A stretch of 64,000 bases of DNA. Origin: Tetracentron sinense (Eukaryota > Streptophyta > Magnoliopsida > Trochodendrales > Trochodendraceae). Position numbers and translations under genes: made by a program. The notes beneath the pieces were generated by a model. That model was not told the DNA's origin and made no database searches. It saw only the letters and a list, made by a program, of their open reading frames with translations. Positions 17,801 through 62,560 of the stretch are shown one piece after another (the first letter of the stretch is position 1; each line of letters opens with the position of its first letter). The DNA lies in NCBI GenBank assembly GCA_015143295.1, contig CM026551.1, forward strand, positions 44,380,034-44,444,033. The letters are read 5' to 3'.

Positions 17801-20800
17801 TGCTTTTTCTGCATGAAGATGGAAGTATACAAAATTCGCATTTCAAAAATCAAATCACATACAAAATGAAAAAAAAAGGTTCCACAAAAAAAATATTCCA
17901 AAAAAAAAAAGTAAAATAAAACAGCTTCAGCTGGGTCTCCAAAATCCAAGCTTAAGCATAGTGACCAAATCCGTGTATAATACCCGTATAATTGGTTTAG
18001 AGGGGTCACCGTTTAAAATGGTGTACTTTTGTTGTATTATGTATTATACACGTATTATCGTATAGTACACATATTTTTGTTGTCTTAAACGCATATTCCG
18101 TATTAAATTATTGTTATTAGTTAGTATCATGCTTCCTATTTATTTATAACAATTATTTTTTTCCTGTATTTTTGCCATGTTTTTGCCATATAACACCCAT
18201 ACTTCTCGAACGGATCATTATCATATTATACATGTATCCATACTTGGGGACTATGAGCCCAGGGACTATGTTTTTGTGAACAAGTTAAAGAACTAGAAGA
18301 TAAGAGCTCAAGATCTATATATCTACAAATAGGACAATAATCCTATAACTTAAAGTGTCATATTTACTTGGCTATCTAGATTCATCCTTTTAAAGTGCAT
18401 TATTATAGAACTGCCACCATAGTGCAATATTCCTTTTTAATTTGGTCCTGAAAAAGTAGAACTGAAAGGCAACGAACTAACAGAAAGGAAACAGAGCGCA
18501 TGCTTTCAGCATTCATCGTTCACACACATGGCATGATTTCAGTTTCAAGCATGACAAAGAACATGTTTCTCATGTAATGGATAGTTTCAATACCATCCAA
18601 AGCAGAAAATCTGAGAGCAAAATGTAATACTAAACAAACTTAAAGTAGGAATTGCAACACAGTTTAAGTTGAGCAGAAAAAATAGAAAAAGAGAAAAGAA
18701 AAGAAATGAAAATGAACAGCAGGATTAGAGTCATACCACCCCAGCGAAAATTAAGAAGGCATAAATGTAACCAATCCAAGCCGGATCCCCTTGTTGCATA
18801 GACTGAAGGTGAAGGTAACAAGTTAATTACTAACTTCTACCAGATACATACTATAAAACTAATAAATTAGGTCCAGTAAAAATGAATTGATAACTCCAAA
18901 GGAATTTAAAAACCTAGAGCAGCAGAATTAAATTGATTCAACAGTTCAACATACAAACATTATTTGTATTATGTTAATTCCTAGGGGTTCTCAGCCTTTT
19001 CCTTAATGGAGATCTTGTAGTTTTTATCAATGACTTTCAATTTGAATGTATAAATGGGAAAGATGTTGAACAACCCATCTTGAGCCGTATCACTCTGCCT
19101 TTTATTTTTCTTCTGTCTTCTCCACTCTTCTTCATCCTTTTACTTCTTAATACAATGTTTGAGAGTTATCCAAAGTAGGGTATGAAGATTAAGATTTCAT
19201 GTTACTAACCGAGACTATAAAGTGCTTCCTATAGAACTAGGAGATACATTCCAAAGACCTGAGTGGTGCTCCTTTGAGACTTCTGTGCAAGTCATTAGAT
19301 ACTATCGTAATGGGCCATTTAAATAAGCCCATTACAGCTTTATTATCTATTTACTTTATTATGTCTTGGTGTCTATTGTCTTTTATGTAAGTAAGGGCAT
19401 TTATGTCCTTTCATTTAGTAGTGATAAAAAAGGAGATTTAAAGGGTTTGGAGACATTATTCCAAACCCTATTCCTATCTAATCTTTTCGCTTATCTTCTA
19501 TTCTTCTCTTCTACAAATCCTAGGCATCAAACCCTAATATTCTACTTGATATCAAAGAGGAAGACATGGCCTGCATTCCTTTTTGTTTCCTTCTTTATTT
19601 TTCCATTGACAGTTCATGAACGTGAATAGTATTTTCCCATATGTTAGAAAAAGTTGGGTTTTTAGAGATCTGTATTTTTGAGGAATTGTGATGTTTTTCC
19701 AGGAATTTTTTGAAAAATTCTAGAAAGAGATTTATCCAGTTGTTTAATTTAGGGAAAAAAATCAGTTTTGAATCAAATAATTGGAAGAAATATTAGGGGT
19801 TTTATGCTGATGTTGGTTGATATAAGTTAATGTATTTGGTGATTGAAACTTAATGGAACAAGAATCGTAAAGTTTGGGTGAGTTTTGAAGTTCCTACATC
19901 GTTTTTCTCAAGTTCGCATGCTGACTTTTTTCCTTTTTGGTATGATTGGGCTATGCTACTTGATTGTATGAAGTTGAAAAAGCTAGTGGGAGGTTGTGAA
20001 ATGTGAAGGTTGTTGATTTGTATAAATCAGCATTAATTTAAACCTCTAGTTGAGGCGTTGTTGGTGTTTAAGAGATCCGGCTTATTCACTTAGTTGATTT
20101 TTTTAATCCCTAAGTAAGACGTATATCTGAGATCAGTGGGATGTAGGACAATTCATATAACACAAGTCTTCCCGGGTCTACTCCTTTTGTGGTTCCTTCT
20201 TCCTAAAATCCTAGCATGTTAATCAGTACAGTGAAATTGGATGGAAGAAATTACATAGAATGGTCACGGCCAGAAAAGTACACTCGCCTTGGTTGCTCTA
20301 CTATGCATAGTGCCTCTGCCACTAGTATTGCCTCCCCTAGGGAGTCCTCTATTATGTGATCCCATCTTCAGTAGTCCTCTAAGGACACCCTTCTGGTATC
20401 CAAAGAGGAACTTGAGTGCTCCCGTCAGTTACTTTTTGAGATGGAGTTATCTACTGCATCATCTGCTTCATTTGCTCAACCAGGTACTCATGCATTTGCC
20501 CATCATGTACCTTCATTAATCACACCTAGGATTCCTTGAATCATCAATTTAAGAGCCTCAGATCATGTCTAGTATCTCCTCAATTTTCTAGCATTTACAA
20601 CTCTTGCCCTAGTCCTTTGAGAGTAAACATTGTTGATAGATCCTTTTCCTACATGTCTAGGAAAGGGAACATCAGTGTCACCCCTACTCTCTCATTATCC
20701 TTTGTAATACATGTTATTGGTTTTTCTGCTAACCTTATTTCTGTTAGTAGTTTAACTAAACATCTGTGTTGTAGCGTAACCTTTTTTTCCATCCCATAGT

Positions 20801-23800: not shown

Positions 23801-26800
23801 AAAAAATAGCAAGAGAGATTAAAGAGAAAAAAGAGAATTTTCGACTAGCTGTCCCTATTAGTAGATATGATCTTTCTCCACTTCTCTATTTACCACTAGA
23901 TCCCAATCATGTTCCATCCAAATATATAACAAAAGCAAATAAACAAGAATATTAGAGGAAAGCAATGCATGAAAAACCACAACCTGGGAAGAAAATCACA
24001 TTTGGGAGCTCATTTGTCATGCAAAAGAAGCCGAGATGATTGCCAAAGACTAGACTTCCAACGACATAAGGAGAGACTTTTCGGATCGTATCTGACCTTG
24101 GCATTTTCCATCAATTTCCCATGTCTAACGATCCCTCTTTGTTTGCAGCTTTCTCTAAAACCCAAGTTGGGTCTGTTAGCCTTTAAGTTTTTGACTTAAG
24201 GTAACATCTTTGATTTTGATGATAACACAATAATAGAATGACTGTAGAGACCCAAATTTAATTTCTCGGTATTTGTGTCATTTATATGAACTTCTTAGAA
24301 TATGAGTCTAATTTTAAAATACATGTGTTCCTATGAGAATTAATGTGGAATGCCTAGATGTAATAACTCCTTATATAATAATATAGTAATTGATTTATTA
24401 TTATTATTACTGGTGGGTGGCACATGCGATGCACCTGAGAGAGGGGGGAAGGAGTTAACCACAGTTAATAGGAGTTAAAAGGGACACATGGTAACCTGCA
24501 AGTGCGATTGAACTCTCCTCGAGTTCAATCGTGATTGACTGTGATTCTATTCTTTAAATAGATAGATGAGCAAGGGATAGTTTGGGAATTCAAGTAAAAC
24601 ATTAAATTAAAATTTTATTTTATATAAGGGTAGTTTGGAAATTTAAGAAAAATCAGGCGTAGCCTCTCGCATTATAAGAGTAAAGATTAAATTAAAAGTG
24701 TCGGGTTTACGGGACCATCTCATTGCCTAAAACAAGATTAGTATATTTATTTTATAACTTCTAGGAGTCTAGGGTTCAAACCTTGAGTTCAGAGTATTAA
24801 CCCAAATGTTTTGGAGTTCTCTTTCACCTTCATCCCACTTGATGAGATATTTTGACCTCCAAGAACTTAAAATTGGGACTTGTCTATTAGACAAGAAATT
24901 GTTCCCCTTTGAATGACAAGTTCAACACAAGTTGAATCGTCTAATTCCAATAACCGAGCAAAAGTTACAGCCAAAATACCGAAGAAGGGTTCCGGAGAAA
25001 AAAAAAATACGGGGAGGCGATCGATCGCCCATCAGAGTGATCGATCGCCAAACACTGGAATTTTTCCGGAAAATCGTGATTTTTGACTTTTTTAGCTTCT
25101 CTTGGGTCCCCCAACTCTATAAATACCTCCATAATTCGTGAATTAGGTTTCCAATAGCCTCCTAAATTTTAAATAGAGCTTTCTACGAGATCTAAAGAGG
25201 AGGAAAATATGATTTTCTGAGAGATTCAAAGAGGGAAAAGCCTAGAGATTTCAAGGATTCAACCAAAGAAGAAGGAAAAAGACTTGAAGATCTAGATCGA
25301 GCCTCATTCGCAAGCGTAAGATCGTAGGGAAGCGATCGAGAGAGATAAACGACGAACCTAGTTTTCCAAATCTTGAATATTAACCAAAAAGATGAATTAA
25401 AAGAAAAGGATTTAAGTAAGAACCTAAAGGCAAGATTTATGAATTCTTAATGTTCCTGATTTATTAATTCATGAATCATTAAATTAGGATGTGAAGAACT
25501 ATGTTATATTTTGTTTATGCTTCAATAAGAGGATTAAGAATTTATATTGAATAAATGTGGATATATGAGGAGAATGGGATGAATGAATGGAGTTTGAATG
25601 AAAGATATGAAGGAATTTGAATGATTGAGATGAATTAATTGTGAGATTATGATTATATGTTAGTGTGATTTTGTGATTATAATCCATGAGAATTATAATT
25701 GATAAAATATGTGGTATAATTCCGATATTGATCTCGATTAAAAAGGGGGTTTTGATGTTTAAATTAGATTATGACTTATGTCTATTAAAGTTAAACTGTG
25801 ATTATAGATTGTTAAATTATTGGATATATGAAAGTTGTGTGTTTATTTTATGTTTTTATATGTGATATATATTTGGGTAAAGGAACCTTTGATAAGAGTT
25901 AAGCTTGCCTAGGCCTGGTTAACATAGTGGAATGGGACGCTATGGTGAGATGTCCTACGGCTCTTGATTTTGTCTTATGTATAATTTAACCAAAGGTGTA
26001 TCATTGTGTACTCACTAATGAAAAATATGCACATGTATGAAGAAAAAATTAAGGGCACTAATAAAATTACAAGTAAGACCAAAAGTAAAGTAAGTAAGTA
26101 AGAAAGACACACGAAAACGATAATGCATGTTTGTGTTTTGCACCACCGAATACCATCAAAAGGGCAATAAGTATGTCAAAGTAAGTAATACCGGAAAATA
26201 TACTAAGCCGTTCGTGCCGGATAATGTACGAAGGATGGTATCTTGGTAAAGTAAAGTATAGTAACCCCTTTACATATACGGTAAAGCGGTATTTTAATTT
26301 ATTACCGATGCATGTGGATGTGTTGTTCATAAAACAATAAAGTAAGAAGTATGAAAAGTAAGAAAGTAAGGAAAGAAAGAAAGTAAATGACATAATGTAC
26401 ATATTCGCTTTTCCGCACTCTGATTTATGTATGTAAACTGAAGTATGAAATGCATGTATGTTAATGTTTATTATATTATTTACTATTGTTCGTTATAGAC
26501 GCAAAGTAATTACTCAGCCGATGACTTTGTTGTCGGCAGGTTTGGTTTTGATATCTATGCACCCGGACCGTGGGAAGAAGAGGAATACATATAGGATCCT
26601 GAAGGTGATCATCCCGAATAGGAACGAGTTCTCGATCGATGGCCGTATTATTGAGTTTGCTTTATTAGTAGTAGTTGGATATAATAAGGATTGTAATTTG
26701 AGTTATTCTGGATTTATAGTTATTTTAGTTTGATGGTTTAGAATCATGATGGATGATCAGGATTTTATTATATTTCAATTGCAATTATAGACCATGGATT

Positions 26801-29800
26801 TATTTAAGGGGAAAATACATTTACACCCCCTAAGGTTTGAAGAAAATACACATACACCCCCTCAGTTTTCAAATAATACATTAGGTACCCTTACTTTTTA
26901 AAATAATGGCACTTACACCCCCTCCATCAGTTGACCGTTAGTCAACTCACAGAATTGTTGATGTATGATGATGTCATGTGATTAAATGTATAAACTTCCA
27001 ACTTTGCCCCTTCAATTTTCAGAAAACACTATTCCTACTCCAAAACACTATTTATTTATTATTTAAATATTTGGTTATCACCCATTGAGGTCGGCACGTG
27101 TCCCTTTTGACACCCCTTAACCGTGGTTAAGATTCACCCACCCATCCTTGTTTATTTTTAAACATTAATTCTTTTTTAAAATTAAAAAAAATAATCAAAG
27201 TTTTTTTAATATTAAAAACAGATTTTTAATATCACCCCTTGAGGTCGCCACGTGTCCCTTTTGACACCCCTTAACCATGGTTAAGATTCACCGAACCATC
27301 CTTGTTTTTTTTTAAATATTAATTATTTTTTAAAAAATTAAAAAATATTTAGTTTTTTTAATATTTAAAAAAAAATTAATATAACCCCTTGAGGTTGCCA
27401 CGTGTCCCTTTTGACACCCCTCAAGGGGTGATATTAAAAAACTTTTTTTAATATTAAAAAAACTTTAATTTTTTTTAAAATTTTCAAAAAATAATTAATA
27501 TTAAAGAAAAACAAGGATGGATGGGTGAATCTTAACCATGGTTAAGGGGTGTCAAAAGGGACACGTGACGACCTCAAGGGGTGATATTAAAAAACTGTTT
27601 TTGATATGAAAAAAAACTCAAATTTGTTTTAATTTTAAAAAATGAATTAATATTTAAAAAAAAACCAAAGATGGGTGGATGAATCTTAACCACGGTTAAG
27701 GGGTGTCAAAAGGGACACGTGGCGACCTCAAGGGGTGGTATTAAAAAACTGTTTCTAATATTAAAAAAACCTTAATTTTTTTTAAATTTTCAAAAAAGAA
27801 TTAATATTTTAAAAAAAACCAAGAATGGGTGAATGAATCTTAACCACGGTTAAGGGGTGTTAAAGGGACACATGGCGACCTCAAGGGGTGATATTAAAAC
27901 TCTGTTATTGATATTTAAAAAACTCTAATTTTTTTTAATTTTCAAAAATGAATTAATATTTTAAAAAAAAACCAAGGATGGGTGGGTGAATCTTAACCAC
28001 GGTTAAGGGGTGTCAAAAGGGACACGTGGCGACCTCAAGGGGTGGTATTAAAAAACTGTTTCTAATATTAAAAAAAAATTAATATAAAAAAAAAAACCAA
28101 GAATGGGTGAGTGAATCTTAACCAAGGTTAAGGGGTGTCAAAAGGGACACGTGGTGACCTCAACCTCAAGGGGTGATATTAAAAATCTGTTTTTAATATT
28201 AAAAAAACTAATTTTTTTTTAAAATTTTCAAAAAGAATTAATATTTAAAAATAAACAAGGATGAGTGGGTGAATCTTAACCATGGTTAAGGGGTGTCAAA
28301 AGGGACATGTGGCGACCTCAAGGGGTGATATTAAAAATCTGTTTTTAATATTAAAAAAACTCTGATTATTTTTTTAATTTTCAAAAAGAATTAATATTTA
28401 AAAATAAACAAGGATGGGTGGGTGAATCTTAACCACGGTTAAGGGGTGTCAAAAGGGACACGTGGCGACCTCAGTGGGTGGTAACCAGATTTTTAAATAA
28501 TAAATAAATAGTGATTTGGAGTAAGAATAGTGTTTTCTGAAAATTGAAGGGGCAATGTTGGAAGTTTACACATTTAATCACATGACATCATCATACATCA
28601 GCATTTCTGGAGTTGACTAACAGTCAACTGATGGAGGGGGTGTAAGTGCCATTATTTTAAAAAGTAAGGGTACCTAATGTATTATTTGAAAACTGAGGGG
28701 GTGTATGTGTATTTTCGTCAAACCATAGGGGGTGTAAATGTATTCCCCTTTATTTAATGTTATTAATTGAAGAAATTTTTAGGTTCGTATTTTTAGTATG
28801 CCTTAAATGCTTCTAACAGGATGGTTTGTTAAGTGAGTCATGTGCCAAAATCTCACATTCTCCTAGGTGGAGTTTTGAGGCGTGACAATGGCATTTGTAT
28901 TACTGATATTCTATTGAGTTTAAGTGTAATTCAGCTTATGAAGAGCATTAGCACATCATCGAAGGCAAAAAGATGAAAATAGCAACCAAGTAAGAAAGAT
29001 TCTCCATCAAGCTATAACAAAGCAATTGGATCAAGTTGAGCACATTGAAGATCATGCCCAAAGTCCAAGACGGATCTTGATGCTAAAGAAGAAATCTACT
29101 CAAGATCAAGATTGAAGACTCTCGAGAAGGTTTTATAGTTTATTATTTAGTCTTTGAAAGTACTTAGGATTTATGTAAGAAATCTTCAAAGTTTGGTCGG
29201 TTGAATTGCCCAATACTTAGATTGACCATAGGTGTCTTAAGACCCATTGAATATCAATCTAAGGACCTAAAACATGATAAAAATCTTGTTAAAGATAAGG
29301 TATAAGACCAAAGAAATCATATCCATCATATTGGTTAAGCAAAGATGAGTTTTTTATAGAAATATAAAGGACTCGTCGACGAGTGACATTGTGGTCTCAG
29401 CACTCGTCGACAAGTGGGCTAACGGTAGCTCGGAATTGAATCTGACAGCTTACTTTTCGACAATTGGACAATGCACTGGTGCACTCATCGACGATTGCTT
29501 GCAGGAAACGCCCAACGGCTAGTTTTTAATAGTTCTTTGAGTTCCCAAGATGCCTCCAACGGCTATATTTTTGAAAGGGCTATAAATAGGATTGATTTAT
29601 GAATGAAAAAAAGAACTTCAAAACTTCCAATCATTCAATCCATTCACTCCAGCTAAGATTGCCAAATCTATTAAGTTTACCCTAGAAATCTCAAATCCTA
29701 GTTTTTGAGCTATTCAACTCCTATCTTTGAGGGATTCATAGAGGATCTTAATTGTAATCTATCAGAGAGCATTTCAAGATTGTAAACACTTATTCAAAGT

Positions 29801-35800: not shown

Positions 35801-38800
35801 AAATGACATGGACGGAGATAGTACAAAATGATTTGATAGAAGACGATTTGATGACTTTTAATAGTGGATTGAAGAAAATGAATTCATGTTACTGATCTCA
35901 ACTACTTGAAATAATGCACTTATGATGATCATCATGAAGTGGTGATGGTAATATGTTACTACACAATAACTTTCCTAAATCATCCTTCCACGTGAAAGAC
36001 CTACCCTGACTTATAAGGAAGTATATTTGTTATCACATGGCAGAACTTTGTCATACGAAATACATTGAATTTCATTGACTTAAGTCTAGTAACCAAGTAC
36101 AAAATCACCAACACTCTGATGCAGCTTAATTTCAAAGAATCAAAGGATATGTGGACCTATTCATGATCCCACTTTCTATTGTTGCCTAGTTGAGTCTCAT
36201 TAATCTAACTATAATGCGAGCGGATATATTATCACAATTTTTGGTATCTTCAGGGTATAGTACGCATTGATTAAACTTCCACTCGAGTTCCTCCTCGCAG
36301 TTGTGGCTATGCAGTGGATAGGATGTACTCATACTCGTCTATCTACCACCAAGATGGTGCATCTTTTTGGTCACTCTTTCATATCTTGGAAGTGCAAAAA
36401 GAATGTTACTGAGGCCAAATATCGCTCTATGTGCTCTGCAAAATATAAAGCTGCACAGCTCTGCAGCCTACTCAAAGGTCTCAAGTCTGTCTTGAATCTT
36501 GAATCCATTCTATTCTCATGCTGACAAATCAGAGCAATCTATCACCTATTCACCTCAGATCCAGTATTTATGGACTGCACCAGACACATTGAGGTGCACT
36601 GTCTTTTCATTCAAGACATTTTCCTGAAGCTGCCATAACATTACCGCGTGTAGCCTTTGAATGCAGACATCTTCATTACATCCATGACATTTGGATGACA
36701 AAACATACTGGCAAATTGATGCTAGGTGATCCACTGCATCAATTGGGGAGGGGAGGGGGAGTGTAAACAGCATCCACAAGTAACATATAGAGTGCTGCAC
36801 GAGCCATTCCTCCATGTCGTAAGAATAATATTCCCTTGTATCGTTACAGTATTCACCTAAAACCTTGTTTTAAATTCCTAAACTAGCACAATTTTAACTC
36901 TATATTATACCCATTTTGGATATCAATATGACCATAAAATTCACCAACGCTCTCTATGTTGAAATTTGGTTTTCATATCCCCTCTTCTATTTTCTTTCAA
37001 TATGACCATAATATTCACCAACACTCTTAAGTTGAAACTTTGTTTTCGTATCCCCTCTTTCATTTCTTTCCCATGTACATATGTACATGTATTGCATCAA
37101 ATCTATTCCCAATTTACAAAGAAGGGAAATTTATGAGCAAAGAGAAAATAAATTAACAAAATCAGCATGACTGACAGGCAACCATTAACTCATTTTATCA
37201 ATTTCTTAACCATGAGAGATCTTTAAGAGAAAATGAAGAAATTAAGAAAATACAATTATGAATGGTACTACACAAGGCCTCTTTTCAATTATAGATGCTT
37301 AAATTAAAGCATAGGAGATCGACCAAGAATGTCCAATGAAACTGAAGCATGTCAATGTTTGTTTTTCATTTTAGGAAAGCTAAACTTGACTCATGAAAGA
37401 GAATGACAATGTCATGTTTAATGGGTCCCCTTCCAGTTGCTAGTTAGAAGAAATTGTGGGCTCCAAGCCTCCAAACAATCAAACCTTAAATAAAGAAAAG
37501 GGATTATGGAATCAATATATATATACACACACACACATATATAACTCAACATTTACTCAACGAGGTATTAGCAACAACATAACTGACCTGTAAGAGGAGG
37601 TTCAATATAACAGGTCCCACAAACTGGGAAAGATCATTGCCAATCTACAAATTGAGCAAAGGAATAATCATTATGCCAAATAATAAATTTATCAAGCAGG
37701 GAAGTGAACAATTTTATCTATGCAACAGTTGAAATTTGCCTTGTTCATTGAAAATCCTTTCCTGCTACATGGGAATAAGCATAACTTAAGATGTCCAAAA
37801 CAAAATTAAGAAACCATATTTAGGCTGGACAGAAGCTTCACTTACTACGAACGTTCATACACTTGGCTAGCAAGCAAGAAAGAAAATTGCATAATTTTTG
37901 TAACATTACATTCCACAATAAACATTCACCTGACCAAACATCTCCAAGGTAGATTCAAATTGTCAAAGAACTTTATTTTCAGAAAACTATTGTAAGTTAG
38001 ATCCATACTGATAAACATGCAGCAGGAGATGTTGTAAGCCAAAAGCCAATCAAATGATTCAAACTATCCAAACTACACACTTCCAATTCTAGATCACAAC
38101 TACATTTTCTTAAATGACACCAGTACGAAATGGCCAATGAAAATGACACAACTCTGTACCATTAAAATGGTGGCTTGATATTTGACCAATGACATCTCCT
38201 AGGTGGAGCTCACTGAGTGGTTGCATCCCCCTGCCTGTATGCCACATGTACAAGAATGACAATTGTGGACCATTCATAGGGTGTGCCTGATGGAAACCCC
38301 AGAAATCCCATCAAGAAAATGCAGATGTGATAGTTGCACCAAGCAACTTGTCACAAAAACTGCATACACATGGATCTTGTGATTTTAATTCAATGAGATG
38401 GACGAATTTTAAACCAGAATAACATCCAAAGAAAATGTCAGAAGGATGAGCTCATTACCTTGAAGATGCCTCCCCACCAAAACCTACAGACAACATTAGA
38501 AGAAAGTGAAAGTTCAGATAAGATGCACGCATATAAAATGACATAATAGAAACATTTTTACATAGATAAACATTTATTCTGGAAGCTTCATCAATCTTCC
38601 CACACCAGAATGGAAAAAATGAACCGTAAAAACCATTACAAAGTATCATTCCATACCTTCCTCCCAGGCTACGATTTAATGCTCGCAACAGCCATGGCTT
38701 AGACCTTTGAGATTCTTCAAGCCAGCAACTCTGGAACCTACAAGTAGACACCACTATAACTGTGTTACAACTGTGATATACTTGAATTCACAGAGGAACT

Positions 38801-44800: not shown

Positions 44801-47800
44801 CCTTATTTCTCAGGTGTTTCTCTTCAAGGGGAGAATTGTGGTATTGAAGATGCTAACCTTCCACCTCCATCCCTATTAGATCTTCCTCCATCCTTTGTTT
44901 CCGTTTCTCCATCCTCATCATCTAAGTCTACTAGAGGTGAGAAGGGAGAGATGAAAACCTATTCCATGCACCATAAGTAAAGGCTACATCGTCTGCCATC
45001 TCATCCTACAACTGTGGATTTAGAGCCTACTCCTTTTGCTAAGTCTTCTCCTGTTATTCTTGTTATTCCACATGTTGTTCCCATTGGCTTATGTAAAGGT
45101 AAATGTACATGTACAACACTTCATCCAATTCCCAATTTTGTTTCTTATAATTCATTTTTTCTTCTCTTTGAGGCTTTGTGTCTTCCTTGTCTTTGTATCT
45201 ATTACTTCCAGTTTATTAGAACCTTTAAATCATCCCATGTATGAAAACTAGTCTATACTCCTAAGGAGAAGAAGATAGTAGGTTGTAAGTGGGTATATAC
45301 AATGAAACATAAAACTGATGGGATAGTGGACAGATACAAGGTAAGGCTGGTTGCAAAAGGGTTTACTTGGACTTATGGAGTGAATTTATCTTGACATCTT
45401 CATCAACTTGATGTGAAAAATGCATTTCTACACAGGGAGTTCCAAGAAGAAGTATACATGACTCTTCCCCTTGGAATCTAGGTTCAGGATCAAAATGGAA
45501 GGTTTGCAAATTGAAGAAGGCAATCTATGGGCTAAAACAATCACCTAGAGCCTAATTTGAAAGATTTAGTGGTGCAGTGAAGAGATTTGGCTATGTTCAA
45601 AGTCATGTTGACTATACTTTATCCATAAAGCATTTGGAGTACTACCACAACAATAATTGTTTATGTAGATGATATTGTGATAACAAATGAAAATGCTCAA
45701 GAGGTTCAAAGACTTAAGGTGTTTCTTGAAATCAAAGATCTAGGACCCCTAAAGTACTTCTTTGGAATTGAGGTTGCTACGTCCAAGAAAGACATTTTTA
45801 TTTCCCAAAAGAAGTGTGTGTTGTTATGTGATACAGGAAAACTGGGTGTTAAACTAGTTAATATACCTATTGAGTCCAATCACAAATTTGACAATGGGGG
45901 TGAAGAACCTCTAGATGATGTTGGGATGTTCCAAAGAGTGGTTAGGAAACTGATTTACTTGTCCTTGACACACCCAGATATAACTTATGAGTTAGTGTAA
46001 TTAGTTAGTTTATGCATAAGCCACAGACTATATACCTAGAGGCAGCTGAAAGAGAACTTAAGTATCTCAAGTCTTCTCTTAAGTCTTAATAGGGGTTTGC
46101 TTTTCCGAAAGAATGGACACGTACAAGTTGAAACCCATACAGATGCTAATTAGGCAAGTTTAGTAACAGACAAAAGATCCACATCAGAGTATTTTACTCT
46201 TGTTGGTGGTAACCTAGTCATGTGGAGAAGCATGAAACAAGCGGTTGTAGTAAGATCCAGTGTTGAGGCTGAGTATAGGGCAATCTCACATGGTACATTG
46301 GGAGTTGTTGTGGATCAAGATCCTTATGACAGAGCTTAGATTCCCAATTCAGTCAGAGATGAGGTTGTATTGTAAAAACAAAGCATCCACTAGTATTGCA
46401 TATAATCTTGTACAACACATAACAAAGCTTATTGAGGTTGGCAGACACTTCATTTATGAGAAGGTGACAACTAAGATTATTAGTTTCCTGTTTGTTAAGA
46501 CAGAGGATCAGCTGGTTGACATACTCACAAAGGTAATGGCATATAACTGACATCGCTACATTATAGAAAAGTTGTGAATGTTCGATATCTATCCCTAGCT
46601 TGAGGGGGAGTTTTGTTATGGGCCTAAATCATCAAGCCCATCGTTTAGTATGTTACTTATTAGTGTGTAATGCTTTACACCTTAGTGGGGGTATTTTTGT
46701 CCACACAACAGTTTTATTACTAAAATAGATAGAGTGTATCTACATTGGATAACTCATTCTCTTTCCTAGACAAAAACATATGAATTCTTCTTCTTTTGCA
46801 CAAGCAACTACAGTTTTTTTCTTCATATTTCTACTATAATAATGGTCATTTATTCCAAAAAAAAAATTAATAATAATAGTTGTCGCTTATTCAAAAAAGG
46901 ACTACAAAAAATAACCTCCAAAATGCAAGGGCCATTATAACAGTTGCGGCCATAGTAACAAATTCGGGGGTTCGGGAATAACTCGGCGAGGGTCCAGTTC
47001 AGAAAAGATCGGCAAAATTCAACGAAGTTGGGATAACTTCGGGAAATAACTTTTTTTTAATAATTATAAAGAGAAAGTAAGATGATATAAACCATAGTTA
47101 CCAAGTCAGAGTTGGAGAATTATTCGTCTAGGGAGAATTTCATACAACATCAGTAAAATTCAAAAATTGCGAAAATAAATCAAGAAAAATTGAGAAAAAG
47201 ATGAAAGTATATTACTTAGGATTACTAAATATGAAAATATAAATAAACATATTTCATATGTTAGATATTTATTCGGCGGCTTTTCAAATGTCGTGAATAA
47301 TTCGTGTTTAATTCATAAAATTCACAACTTCTTGAAAAAGTCACAAACAGTTCGTAAATTAATCAATCGACAAAAAAGTTGGGTGTTATTCGGGATATTT
47401 CGAAAAATTCGAAGAACTTTGTTACTATGGTTTCAGACTTTCAGCAGGGTCCTTTATGTACGCCGAAGCCGTTATTTTAATCTTTGCCTTCAAGTGAGCA
47501 AGATGGATGTGAACCACTTATACTTTGACCAGTACCCCATCACTACAACGGTTATAGCTATGTCGCCTTTTCCCATTTTTTTTTGTTAATTTCTTATTTA
47601 GAAATATAATCTAATATAATATATATCTGAAATTTAAATAAAATATAACCAAAGATAATAGGGTAAATTACATTGACCTCCTCTGAGGTTGGTGAAATTT
47701 CATAAACCTCCCCCTCTTGTTTCTGAAATTACACTACCCTCCACTGTCAGGCTTGTCAGGTTAACACCATTAAAGGAGGATACTCCTTTACAATCTTACC

Positions 47801-49007
47801 CTCCAAGAAAGGGGAAATCATGAGGAAAAGTTTCTGAAAAAGAATTGCTCTTTTAGTTCCAACTTCTTCAACCTCTGTCCAAGAGTTGAGAAGAATCTCT
47901 TCTGAGTGATTCGAAGAACAAATCCATTAATTCAAATCAGCAACATCATCTCCAGTTTTTCTTTCACTCTTCCTCTCACATTTACGATTTTGAGCAGCCT
48001 TTACAATAGCAGTCTCTCTTTCTCTTGCGAGCATCCTCACAAAAGTTTCCTTGCACAGCAGCTCCTATCTTCTGTAGCAAAAGCAGCGCAACAACAGCCA
48101 ACACCTCCATCATCCTTCAGATCTGCACAACGAAACCAGCACCTTCTTCATATTTGAAAACGAAGCAGAACATTCTTGATATCATCAAATCAACAGATGC
48201 GGACAGGAAACGCAGCAGCAGACGTGCTCTTCATAGGAGCAGCCGCAGACAAACTCCCTCACCTGATTCACACAGCAGTAATCTTGTCTTCCTTCATGGC
48301 ACTAACTGACCTTGCCACCATGAACATATCACAAGCAAGAGTAGAAGGCAGCCCCTTCATTCTCCCTGCCCTCTTCCATCTTCATGACGCAGGTGAACAT
48401 TTCGGATTTTGTTTCTTAATTGATCCATAGTTTTTGGTCCTAGTAGTTAAAGGGGGCTCTACAAGCCACCACGTGTCCCTTTTAACACCCACGTCCCACT
48501 ATGATTAAGATTCACTCACCCTAGGGTTAATCCATCTTAACTTGATTTTTAGAAGAAAAAAATAACCATAGGTTGATTATGCATGACCACAATCAAGGGG
48601 ACACTACAAGCAGCCACGTGTCCCTTTCATCACCCACTATCTGTGGTTAAGATTCACTCACCCCTAGGATTCATCCATCTAACCTTGGTTTTAAGAAGAA
48701 AAAAACCTTGGTTTTTAAATATTTATATATGTATTAACCTTAAGTTGATACTATTAACCTTGGAATATATATTAACCTTAAGTTTATACTTACCAAACCT
48801 AATTATCATTTATTTCATTGTATTAGTTGACTTTGTCTTTAAAAGGGTAATTTAGAATTTTAAAATGTCTAAATAATGACATCATCAAAGTCCATCTATG
48901 TAAGTAACGGCAAAATAACAAAAGGGGGTATTTGTTATAGACAATTGAAGTTGAGGGGAGGGCAATGTAATTTTAGAAACAAGAGGGGAGGTTTCTGAAA
49001 TTTCACC

Positions 49008-49038
<31 letters not shown>

Positions 49039-52000
49039 AAGATAATATTATTATGACGACTGTTATGACAAATACAAAGGAAATAATAGCATTTTCATTC
49101 AAGCATACAATTTTGTGTTTGACAGATATGACTGTTACACCAGCATCATAATGCCCATAAAAACCATGGTGCATATCAACAAATCTTTTTCTTTCCAATG
49201 AATTTTTTTCCAAATGGCCCTTGAATGGATTGAGGCATTTATAGTCATCTTTTACTCAATTGTATATTGGAACAAAAGAGTATAATATTGTTTTATGCAA
49301 TAAATTTGAGAACACTCTTAATTGAAATTGAATTATTGCTTCAAAAGTAAACAAATGTTTCAGCAATCCAATCCTATTATCTTCCGATCCTGGTTATCCC
49401 ATACTTTTTCATTCATTAATTTCTCAACAAAGACGAGTGTTGGGCCTTTAGTAAGTTATGAACATAAGAAGATTAAAAGAATAACAGTTACCTAGTCATC
49501 TTTAACCAGTGAAATACTAAACCTAATGAATGAGAGGAGAACTCGCCTGTTATAATACTCCTTCACTGACAGAACGAGATTAAGCATGACAGCCTCCCCT
49601 ACCAGAACATAAAGGACCGCAAATCGGACATACCACCGCAACTCACGGATGTAGATTTTAGTTTCAACACCAATCATGACCAGCATAGAGCACCAAGCAA
49701 GAGCCTCAATAATCAAAGAAACCATCTGTAAAAGAAAAGAGAAGTAATTTTTCATAAGAATGAAACAAATTCAACATACAATTTAGTAAGCCAGAGCTTC
49801 AGGATATAATACCGTAGGCCTGCCAATATACAAGATTTTCAAGTACTGGATCGAATTCAGGAGATTGAAGTGGTTCAATGGTTCAGTGTTGTACTGTTTT
49901 GCAAATTTTAATGGTGGAATTAGGAATTATGGTCATATTATTAGGCCGTTTTGGTCTTTTTAAACAAGACGCTGGGACAATGTTAGTGTGTAACGGTAAC
50001 CTAAGGAAAGCAAATCTTCTATTAGGTACCTAACACCAATTTTGATGTTAGATCCCACCATCTTCAATAACAAAGTTCACAGTGCAAGTGTTCTAAAAAT
50101 TAAGATGAGACTAAACTACCCTTCTTTTCATGTTTTTCCAAACCTTCCCCATGTGGCGCATTGTTATTAGAGATAGTAGAATTGAACACCAAAACAGGTG
50201 TTAGGATCCTAATAGAAGATTTTCTCTCGTAACATAGCCCAAAAATGAAAAGTTACAAAAATATTCATATTAATGCAAAATTTACTAACATACCCCTAGA
50301 ACCAAATTAATACAAGTACCCCTGACTTTACTAAGAATGAGTCTCATTTTATTCATTTTTATTTAAATTATTTTCTAATAAAGTCAGTCTGTTCCGAAAT
50401 CAAACTAGCCTTTTAATTGGTTAAATAGTGTTAAACCAATCATAAGGTTACATGTGGCAGTCAAGAGTCAACTCTTGTGAAAATTTAGGGTTTATTGGAA
50501 ACCATTATGGAGGCTGTAATCTAATTACCATCATCCTTTTTTTTCAACTGTAAAAATTATAGGATAAATTGCTAAATGCTTTATTGGAAACTGCTGCCTT
50601 TTAATTTAAATTGATTTTAAAGGTGGTGGTAGTTATTCTACCGCTAACCTTGTTTTCAGATGATTTTGAAATGTCAGTAATACAATTACCGATACTATGT
50701 GTTTTGCCTAAATGCCAGGGGGGAGGTAATTGTATTAGCGGCATCTTCAATTTCTACGAAATTCAAACTTACAAGATAAAAATAACAACTCTCTAGTTCT
50801 CTCACCGTTCTATAAAACCCAATCTTGGTCTGAAAGAAAGAAAGGGAAAAAACTTTTCACACTTAATCTCTTCGAGAACCCTTTCTTTAAACTCCTCTCT
50901 TTTCTCTTATTTACTCCCTCTAGATAATTTTAGTAGATACAAAGCCATTCTTTTGGAGATTATTTCAAATATTAAGTTGATATTTTTGGAGGATCATTTA
51001 AGCTTTTAAGTTGTAATTACTCTTTGAATTTGGTTTTTCTTCACCTTTTTTGCTTGAACTATAGTGTAGAAAGCATGTTTAGGAATTGAATTTGTTTATG
51101 TGGTTGAATCAATGTAGTCAAAATTTCAACTAGGCTACACCTAGGCCACCGCCTCGCCTAGCCAGGACCCCTATCGCCTAGAGGCCCTAGACCATAATCT
51201 AGGCAAGCACTCAGTAAATCTTAGATACTATAACATAATGTATACAGAAAAAGTAAATTTTGGTCGCCTAGGGCATCGCCTAAGCAACGCTGATAGAACC
51301 CCATATTACCGAGGCATCGCTTGGATGCTTTGACTACACTGGACTAAATGAAAACATACATAGAATTTCTTGTTATTACTCACATGTGATTGGTTTTATT
51401 CGTTTTCCAAATTCTCTATCTACCCTCTAATTCCTCTATCTTTTTGTAGGAATTAAAACTGTAATTCTGGTTTTTTAAGGGGTTGGGGACGAGTTTTGCA
51501 TTGGTTTGACGCACATAAATATGTTTGCCAGAGATGGGGATAAAATTTGGGAAATTTTCAATGTTTGTTTACTTTGTGAATCTACTCGATGGACTTAGTA
51601 CGGCTCAAAAATTGATCATTAAGTATCTGAACCTAATTTGGGTCCCTAAACTTAATGGACTAGATTGATCTTCGGTCGAGAATTGAGATAAGCCCAACTG
51701 TTGGATTACCTGGTTTGACTTTTTTCAATAACGGTGGATGATCATGCCTTTCTAAAATGATATATCTGAATGAAATGAATTCGGATAGAGAAGTGTTTGC
51801 TTAGAATTCGCTCCATTGATAGCCCTAGCGGTAGGCATAGTAATAAAGTTCTCCGATTTTTTCAAAAGTCCGAATAATACAGGACCTTTTCATCAAATGA
51901 TTAATGCCCAAACTATGCACAAGTTTTTGAAAAAAATCATGACTTATTTAAAAAGTTGCAAATTTCACGAATTATTCGCCACTTTTTGAAAAAATCCTAA

Positions 52001-61651: not shown

Positions 61652-62560
61652 TGTAAGCAACTAATTTTTACACCCTGCCTTTAACCATGTATAACACTTT
61701 TTAACCATTGTTATCCCCAGCTGAGCCCCTGTCAAGCCCTAAACCCTAGGTCTAACCCTAGGACAAACCCTAACCCTAGGTAAACCCTGGTCTAAACCCT
61801 GGTCAAACCCTAGTTGAGCCCTAGGTCTAACCCTAGGACAAACCCTAACCCCAGGTAAACCCTAGTTCAAACCCTGATCAAACCCTAGGTAAACCCTGGT
61901 CCAAACCCTAGTCAAACCCTAGTTAAACCCTATGACAAACCCTAACCTTAGGTAAACCCTGGTCAACCCTAGGTAAACCCTAGTCTAACCCTAGGTGAAC
62001 TCTAATTCAGCCCTAAGGCCCAAAAATCCTCAAATCCGAAGCCTAGAAACCTCTGTGGGCCCAAACAGGGGCCCCTAAGCCTTTAGAGCCCAATATAGTG
62101 CGGCCCACATGTTTTTTTTGAAAATTTAAATAATGGCGGTAATAACTTTACCGTCATTACCAAAAATAGCAAAGTGAGCAGTGAATTAGGCCAATCGTGT
62201 GAAGGTTGGGCCTGGTTTAGCAAAAAATTGGCAATGGCGGTAGAGTTTCTACCGCCATTCCTAGTTTAGGCTAAACCAGGAATAGCGGTAAAAACTTTAC
62301 CGTCATTCCTGTTTCTCTGTAAATTCGCGTACTGGCACCCCCCTGGACCACTGTGCTCCGCCCCCCTGGGGTTCTCAACTCCTCTGATATCCCTAGAATG
62401 CCCTAGGGTCTCCCTCCTCCTCTATAAAAGATTCCCCCAATCCTTAGTTCCAATCATTCCTCAATACCCATACCAAACCCCTGTTGGAGTTCGGCCAGCC
62501 CACTCCTAAGCCTCTCAGGCCTTTGCCCTCGCCTGAGATCACCCCTAGTGCATCCCAGCA
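61652..62560 (+). mobile_element. Gypsy-style LTR with telomere-like words, cut by another LTR
   Basis: Starts TGTAAGCAACTAATTTTTAC, like the LTR at 32497. From 61735 to 62020 it is packed with CCCTAGGTAAACCCT-type words. Then come 'aatggcggtaataac'-type inverted words and CTATAAAAG near 62421. It stops abruptly at 62560, where the next LTR begins. Fossil. Confidence 0.65.

Follow-up and report, generated by a model that had tools for sequence, protein, structure and literature searches.

A two-block G-box module of an intronic Mutator-like foldback element in Tetracentron sinense is retained between two diverged transposon families

The window, a 64-kb stretch of the Tetracentron sinense genome analyzed over its full length and in whose coordinates all positions are given here, contains part of an ABCC2-like gene on the minus strand. 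An Arabidopsis ABCC1/2-like query aligns with fourteen stretches that follow one another in order, starting at 52976 and ending at 1947. For two of the gene's exons the best match is a solved chain entitled ABC transporter C family member 2, which we take to be the Arabidopsis protein. ABCC1 and ABCC2 pump ABA-glucosyl ester into the vacuole. A scan of the 64-kb window gave no ABC signature motif because the window covers only the first half of this minus-strand gene. A transposable element at 26808-28748 sits in an 18.8-kb intron between 37588 and 18808, bounded on the minus strand by an upstream exon match at 37588..37644 (about exon 7) and a downstream one at 18734..18808 (about exon 8); 8.8 kb and 8.0 kb separate it from these exons on either side. 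The initial annotation had placed this insertion in intron 7 of an ABCC gene, and the flanking ABCC2-like exon matches agree with that placement, the number seven holding only if a weak match (E 0.18) at 38509-38456 represents an exon.

Three further blocks in ABCC introns are of copia type. The first spans 3.8-9.8 kb, with Pfam Pol_BBD and rve at 6.4-7.4 kb; the second, at 19.3-23.6 kb, shares the intron with the element and is recognized by DNA similarity, its three frames being without Pfam hits; the third spans 40.9-46.2 kb and has Pfam rve plus a sub-cut-off RVT_2 at 44.0-46.0 kb. A reading of the three as tandem ABCC duplicates was rejected, as two are copia-type retrotransposon sequence by Pfam and the third by DNA similarity, and they therefore cannot serve as unoccupied counterparts of the insertion site. 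The stretch at 61733-62015 is a degenerate tandem array of telomere-like, AAACCCTAGG-type units.

The 1,941-bp element at 26808-28748 is a copy of a non-autonomous Mutator-like foldback transposon, as its ends, arms and target duplications indicate and its genome relatives bear out. It is flanked by two copies of TTTATTTAA (26799..26807 and 28749..28757) that match at 9 of 9 positions, begins with GGGGAAAATACATTTACACCCCC at 26808 and finishes with the inverted copy of that terminus, ending GTATTCCCC, at 28748. The left terminal inverted repeat runs on the plus strand up to the first module (26808..27092) and the right one on the minus strand from past the last module (28467..28748). Aligned against each other, the inverted arms are 98% identical over 135 nt and 90% over the next 268 nt, or 92% over 635 bp in a single alignment. 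The 9-bp target duplication and the long inverted ends had both been described in the initial annotation and are found as described; they are features of Mutator-like elements (MULEs), whose target duplications measure 8-11 bp and typically 9 bp, and the arms are composed of repeated units, ten modules in all with three on the minus strand followed by seven on the plus strand, as in a foldback element.

Each module consists of two blocks, GTGAATCTTAACC (the partner block) and GGACACGTGGC (the G-box block), usually 21 bp apart, and the repeat spacing is mostly 150-154 bp, with 125 and 158 bp also seen among the seven plus-strand units. On the minus strand lie module 1 (27093..27137, G-box block at 27093), which reads GGACACGTGCC, one base off GGACACGTGGC; module 2 (27247..27291, block at 27247), with an exact GGACACGTGGCG; and module 3 (27397..27407, block at 27397), an exact GGACACGTGGC trimmed to the G-box part, without the first block, at the junction near 27.42 kb where the two inverted arrays join. 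On the plus strand, GGACACGTGGCG is exact in module 5 (27679..27723, block at 27713), module 7 (27986..28030, block at 28020) and module 10 (28422..28466, block at 28456); module 4 (27525..27569, block at 27559) has GGACACGTGAC and module 8 (28111..28155, block at 28145) has GGACACGTGGT, while the G-box reads CACATG in module 6 (27833..27876, block at 27866) and CATGTG in module 9 (28269..28313, block at 28303). Exact CACGTG is thus present in eight of the ten modules, the two variants being without the CpG. When the element was shuffled 500 times with dinucleotides preserved, CACGTG appeared 0.08 times on average and never more than twice; in the whole window 14 CACGTG were seen against 3.4 expected. 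GGACACGTGGC is exact in 5 of the 10 modules and GGACACGTGGCG in 4.

Against this shuffled background, the ten internal units with eight exact G-boxes previously reported stand. Other parts of that description hold less completely. The context GCCACGTGTCCC, given as fixed, is exact in five of the eight CACGTG modules, and the remaining three differ from it by one flanking base. TTAACC-GGTTAA palindromes, in the form TTAACC-NN-GGTTAA, do occur nine times, but the third module has none. The TTGAC cores also exist, as 14 TTGAC/GTCAA strings, but their reading as W-boxes is weak: the W-box rule is TTGAC[C/T], and only four of the strings fit it, all in the terminal repeats and none in the modules, where nine strings read TTGACA; one further string reads TTGACG. 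A lone decayed module, GTTAAAAGGGACACATGGT, lies near 24.48 kb (24455-24502) in the intron that holds the element; it is a remnant, and no inverted repeat was found around it in 23.9-25.2 kb.

To place the element in a family, we searched the 1.16-Gb genome that contains the window. With the element as query, a first look returned 9,240 candidates; the 40 that were scored yielded 211 aligned pieces, with several to a copy, and the closest other copy among these 40 is 90% identical over positions 1-1936. The genome has 1,252 instances of the 23-bp end at two mismatches or fewer, compared with 0 for the reversed string. The 40 copies were fetched with their flanks and both ends could be placed in 29, of which 13 have a perfect 9-bp target duplication (0.14 expected when flanks are swapped between copies) and 22 have one with at most one mismatch (mean 0.72 with swapped flanks). 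Two pairs, L043/L055 and L060/L061, share the same target duplication and are apparently duplicated insertions, so that the 40 copies are not fully independent. These ends and duplications support a large family of Mutator type, and the recurrence of 9-bp duplications across genome copies upholds the Mutator-like foldback identity first proposed for the element. Among 15 aligned copies the window copy has 22 of 1,709 private non-CpG differences, the fourth lowest number, which gives its relative age only.

A second Mutator-like element, W2, occupies 47661..49038, within the second intron of this ABCC gene and 0.5 kb from exon 2, between target duplications of AAGATAATA (47652-47660 and 49039-49047). 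Over 74-75 bp its ends share about 72% identity with those of the 26808-28748 element, and it carries the two-block module twice, one copy being exact. A genome search with W2 gave 206 aligned pieces in 40 scored candidates. When the majority letters of 415 family-1 units were compared with those of 30 family-2 units (L079-L086, window copies included), the two profiles agreed at 13 of 13 positions of GTGAATCTTAACC and at 11 of 11 of GGACACGTGGC, the latter agreement being partly built in because the family-2 units were gathered by an anchor containing the G-box block. The partner block lay outside this anchor, and the second family itself was noticed through its module match. The spacer between the blocks agrees at only 16 of 21 positions, and the flanks at 15 of 33, 10 of 20 and 20 of 40. 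Two transposon families of this genome, though diverged, have kept both blocks.

The blocks are abundant well beyond these copies. The 11-mer GGACACGTGGC occurs 9,318 times in the genome, compared with 67 for the reversed string, and the 13-mer GTGAATCTTAACC 37,934 times, compared with 36; the two lie within 8-38 bp of each other in 1,980 cases (0 in the control), and the spacing is exactly 21 bp in 84 of 100 listed pairs. On average this corresponds to one exact G-box block per 125 kb and one exact partner block per 31 kb, although the blocks cluster within elements, and the 64-kb window has 6 and 8 of them, five and most, respectively, inside the 26808-28748 element. From 100 listed GGACACGTGGC sites on contig 1 we sampled eight, spaced about evenly along the list. 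Five have the partner block beside them, allowing one mismatch, and three do not; of these three, two (L089 and L093) have other matches in the genome, the third being L092. GTGAATCTTAACC is about four times commoner genome-wide than the exact G-box block, and it may therefore also ride on repeats whose G-box is missing or no longer has the CpG.

We used the CpG within the G-box as a measure of whether the motif is kept. An anchor search recovered 418 units, 407 of them in the 40 genome copies (another anchor gave the 415 compared above, window copy included), and 376 of the 407 were scored, 31 with more than six mismatches being dropped. The G-box CpG is intact in 290 of 376 units, whereas the GGCGACC CpG is intact in 205 and the palindrome CpG in 211, differences of 0.23 and 0.21 (bootstrap intervals over elements 0.14-0.31 and 0.15-0.28), although this is not a clean test because of the ancestry that copies have in common, the duplicated insertions among them and an uncontrolled deamination context. 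In 4,029 pairs of units drawn from different elements and matched to within one difference over 61 other core columns, the G-box CpG differs in 37%, versus 57% and 47% for the other two CpGs. Private transitions at the G-box CpG, in contrast, number 8 in 285 cells compared with 4 in 272 and 4 in 242 at the other CpGs, and the 15 aligned copies show no sign that the G-box is protected in single copies. Private loss is not lower at the G-box, and any constraint must therefore have acted among ancestors only. These counts are most simply read as a G-box that was important to the line of source copies and would have been free to decay in single insertions.

The resemblance of the G-box block to an ABA-responsive element (ABRE) is real at the level of sequence. 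The ABRE/G-box core CACGTGGC is present in the form used in ABF probes, and the same sequence as GGACACGTGGCG has reportedly been used to isolate Arabidopsis ABF factors. For IbABF4, an ABA-responsive bZIP factor of sweetpotato, a gel-shift probe has been described that was specifically bound in vitro and is printed as GGGACACGTGGC twice plus a third, differing repeat (PMC6531819). GGACACGTGGCG, exact in four of the ten modules, is contained in this probe, as expected if the G-boxes are of ABRE type as the initial annotation had claimed. An exact-string search of an open-access paper collection with both blocks and their complements or extensions gave five papers; one has the ABF4 probe, and the other four seem, from their titles, to be unrelated.

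Taken with the retention of both blocks, this match leads us to favor, tentatively and at slightly less than an even chance, a reading in which the module is a tandem landing platform that serves the transposon, most likely for a host G-box/ABRE bZIP (or bHLH) factor. The module would recruit a DNA-binding protein to the transposon ends, and a host G-box factor is the favored binder because the match to the host site is exact. Once bound, such a factor might hold source-copy ends in an open or transcribable state, or might time mobilization to stress. After insertion, ordinary copies would escape this constraint and decay by CpG loss, as may have happened in two of the ten G-boxes here, and the copy in ABCC intron 7 would probably be a bystander.

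VANDAL elements of Arabidopsis, a Mutator-like group, offer a different binder. They carry tandem non-coding arrays of a short motif, as does the element here, and VANC, an anti-silencing protein that the transposon itself encodes, binds the VANDAL motifs (PMC5735166); the VANC-bound arrays drive hypomethylation (PMC5735166; PMC10398659). VANDAL/VANC is the closest working analogue, and the main rival reading is therefore that the module is bound by a protein that the transposon encodes, either Mutator transposase or a VANC-like anti-silencing factor, the ABRE match being coincidental or secondary. The tandem arrangement of the modules in a Mutator-like element fits this idea, which we regard as possible but on the unlikely side. 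VANC targets are described as varying considerably between related elements (PMC5735166), whereas the blocks here are identical between the profiles of two families whose ends share about 72% identity, and the match to the ABRE probe is exact. The element further differs from VANDAL in its motif and its long terminal repeats. The three VANC motifs given in the same source (YAGTATTAY, AGTTGTCC and AGTTGTAC; PMC5735166) have 0 occurrences on either strand of the 26808-28748 element. Finally, we examined 30 MULE transposase loci, from 150 matches scored and 1,282 first-look candidates, and GGACACGTGGC, allowing one mismatch, was found within 1.5 kb of the transposase domain at none of them. The partner block occurs once each, with one mismatch and lacking its surrounding context, at four of the 30 loci that are near-identical copies of a single sequence, and we read this as chance.

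Neutral amplification, in which a unit that happens to contain a G-box was expanded by unequal exchange and spread by transposition without any role for the motif, is in our view improbable. The tandem and inverted units and the 125-158 bp spacing of the seven plus-strand ones do resemble products of unequal exchange, and private CpG losses are not fewer at the G-box. Such a process, however, sits poorly with family profiles that differ in spacer and flanks yet agree fully in both blocks, and with a G-box CpG that is kept oftener than the two other CpGs of the unit.

The initial annotation had suggested that the insertion brought a special ABA- or stress-responsive array to the ABCC gene. ABRE-grade sites are indeed present, and vacuolar uptake of ABA-glucosyl ester by ABC transporters is mentioned in the literature (PMC6345954), but a role as an enhancer of this gene appears very improbable: the element is 8.0 and 8.8 kb from the exons on its two sides, its intron also contains a copia-related block, the same gene carries W2 in intron 2, and G-boxes in single copies, whose CpG loss is not lower, have no sign of protection. 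The 11-mer occurs more than nine thousand times in the genome (9,318) and therefore looks like transposon equipment, not something special to the ABCC gene; none of the findings singles this gene out. Least credible of all is a hairpin formed by the inverted arms in the ABCC pre-mRNA that would give rise to small RNAs and silence the family in trans, since for all the arms' length and identity (about 635 bp at 92%), their intronic position and the many related copies, excision of an 18.8-kb intron need not give a stable hairpin.

If the landing-platform reading is extended, several Mutator-like families might share the two-block module under transposon-level selection and hijack the host ABA/G-box bZIP machinery, scattering thousands of perfect ABREs, tying transposon activity to drought signaling and titrating or rewiring factors genome-wide; we consider this broader proposal unlikely as it stands. 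Parts of the system have counterparts elsewhere. Nematode Tm1 foldback elements have composite inverted arms, internal repeats and 9-bp target duplications as seen here, and plant FARE and Tnr8 are named with foldback or Mutator-like foldback transposons as close systems; the motif in this kin is ~14 bp, whereas here a ~154-bp unit has a two-block module that ends in an ABRE-grade G-box. E2F sites in Brassicaceae, in a review's account of Henaff et al. 2014, were amplified by DNA transposons including Mutator-like MITEs, a comparable spread of many copies of one transcription-factor site (PMC12595863); in contrast, the site here, a G-box/ABRE of bZIP type, stands in tandem arrays and is paired with a partner block at nearly constant spacing. 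Tomato Rider is likewise a transposon whose control region includes an ABRE-like element, and it is induced by ABA, but it is an LTR retrotransposon with an ABRE-like plus a CE3 element and its ABA response is experimental, whereas our case is made from sequence (PMC6762207). That plant transposons spread transcription-factor sites is already known (PMC12595863). An ABA-response element within a two-block module that diverged Mutator-like families retain, its G-box block present more than nine thousand times in one genome, would offer a clear system in which to ask whether transposons adopt host stress-factor sites to their own advantage. Repeat copies will swamp ABRE motif scans in this species, and an ABRE array near a gene is no evidence of ABA control.

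We also looked for an autonomous partner of the family. The element's terminal repeat was found within 1.5 kb at 0 of the 30 MULE transposase loci, and no transposase with the family's ends was found among them and their 1.5-kb flanks. One sampled G-box site gives a weak lead: of 27 places in the genome that match a 103-bp stretch around the L093 G-box, four, at 74-75% identity, lie near MULE transposase domains and may point to such a partner. The matching stretch is 3.4 kb from the transposase domain at L027, L029 and a locus on contig C12, and 6.3 kb away on the other side at L030; three of these four loci (L027, L029 and L030) are near-identical to one another. L027, L028, L029, L030 and L034 are 98.7-99.3% identical in ten pairwise alignments and, with open frames of 825-829 aa at L027, L029, L030 and L034 and of 657 aa at L028, represent a group of transposase loci that was probably active recently.
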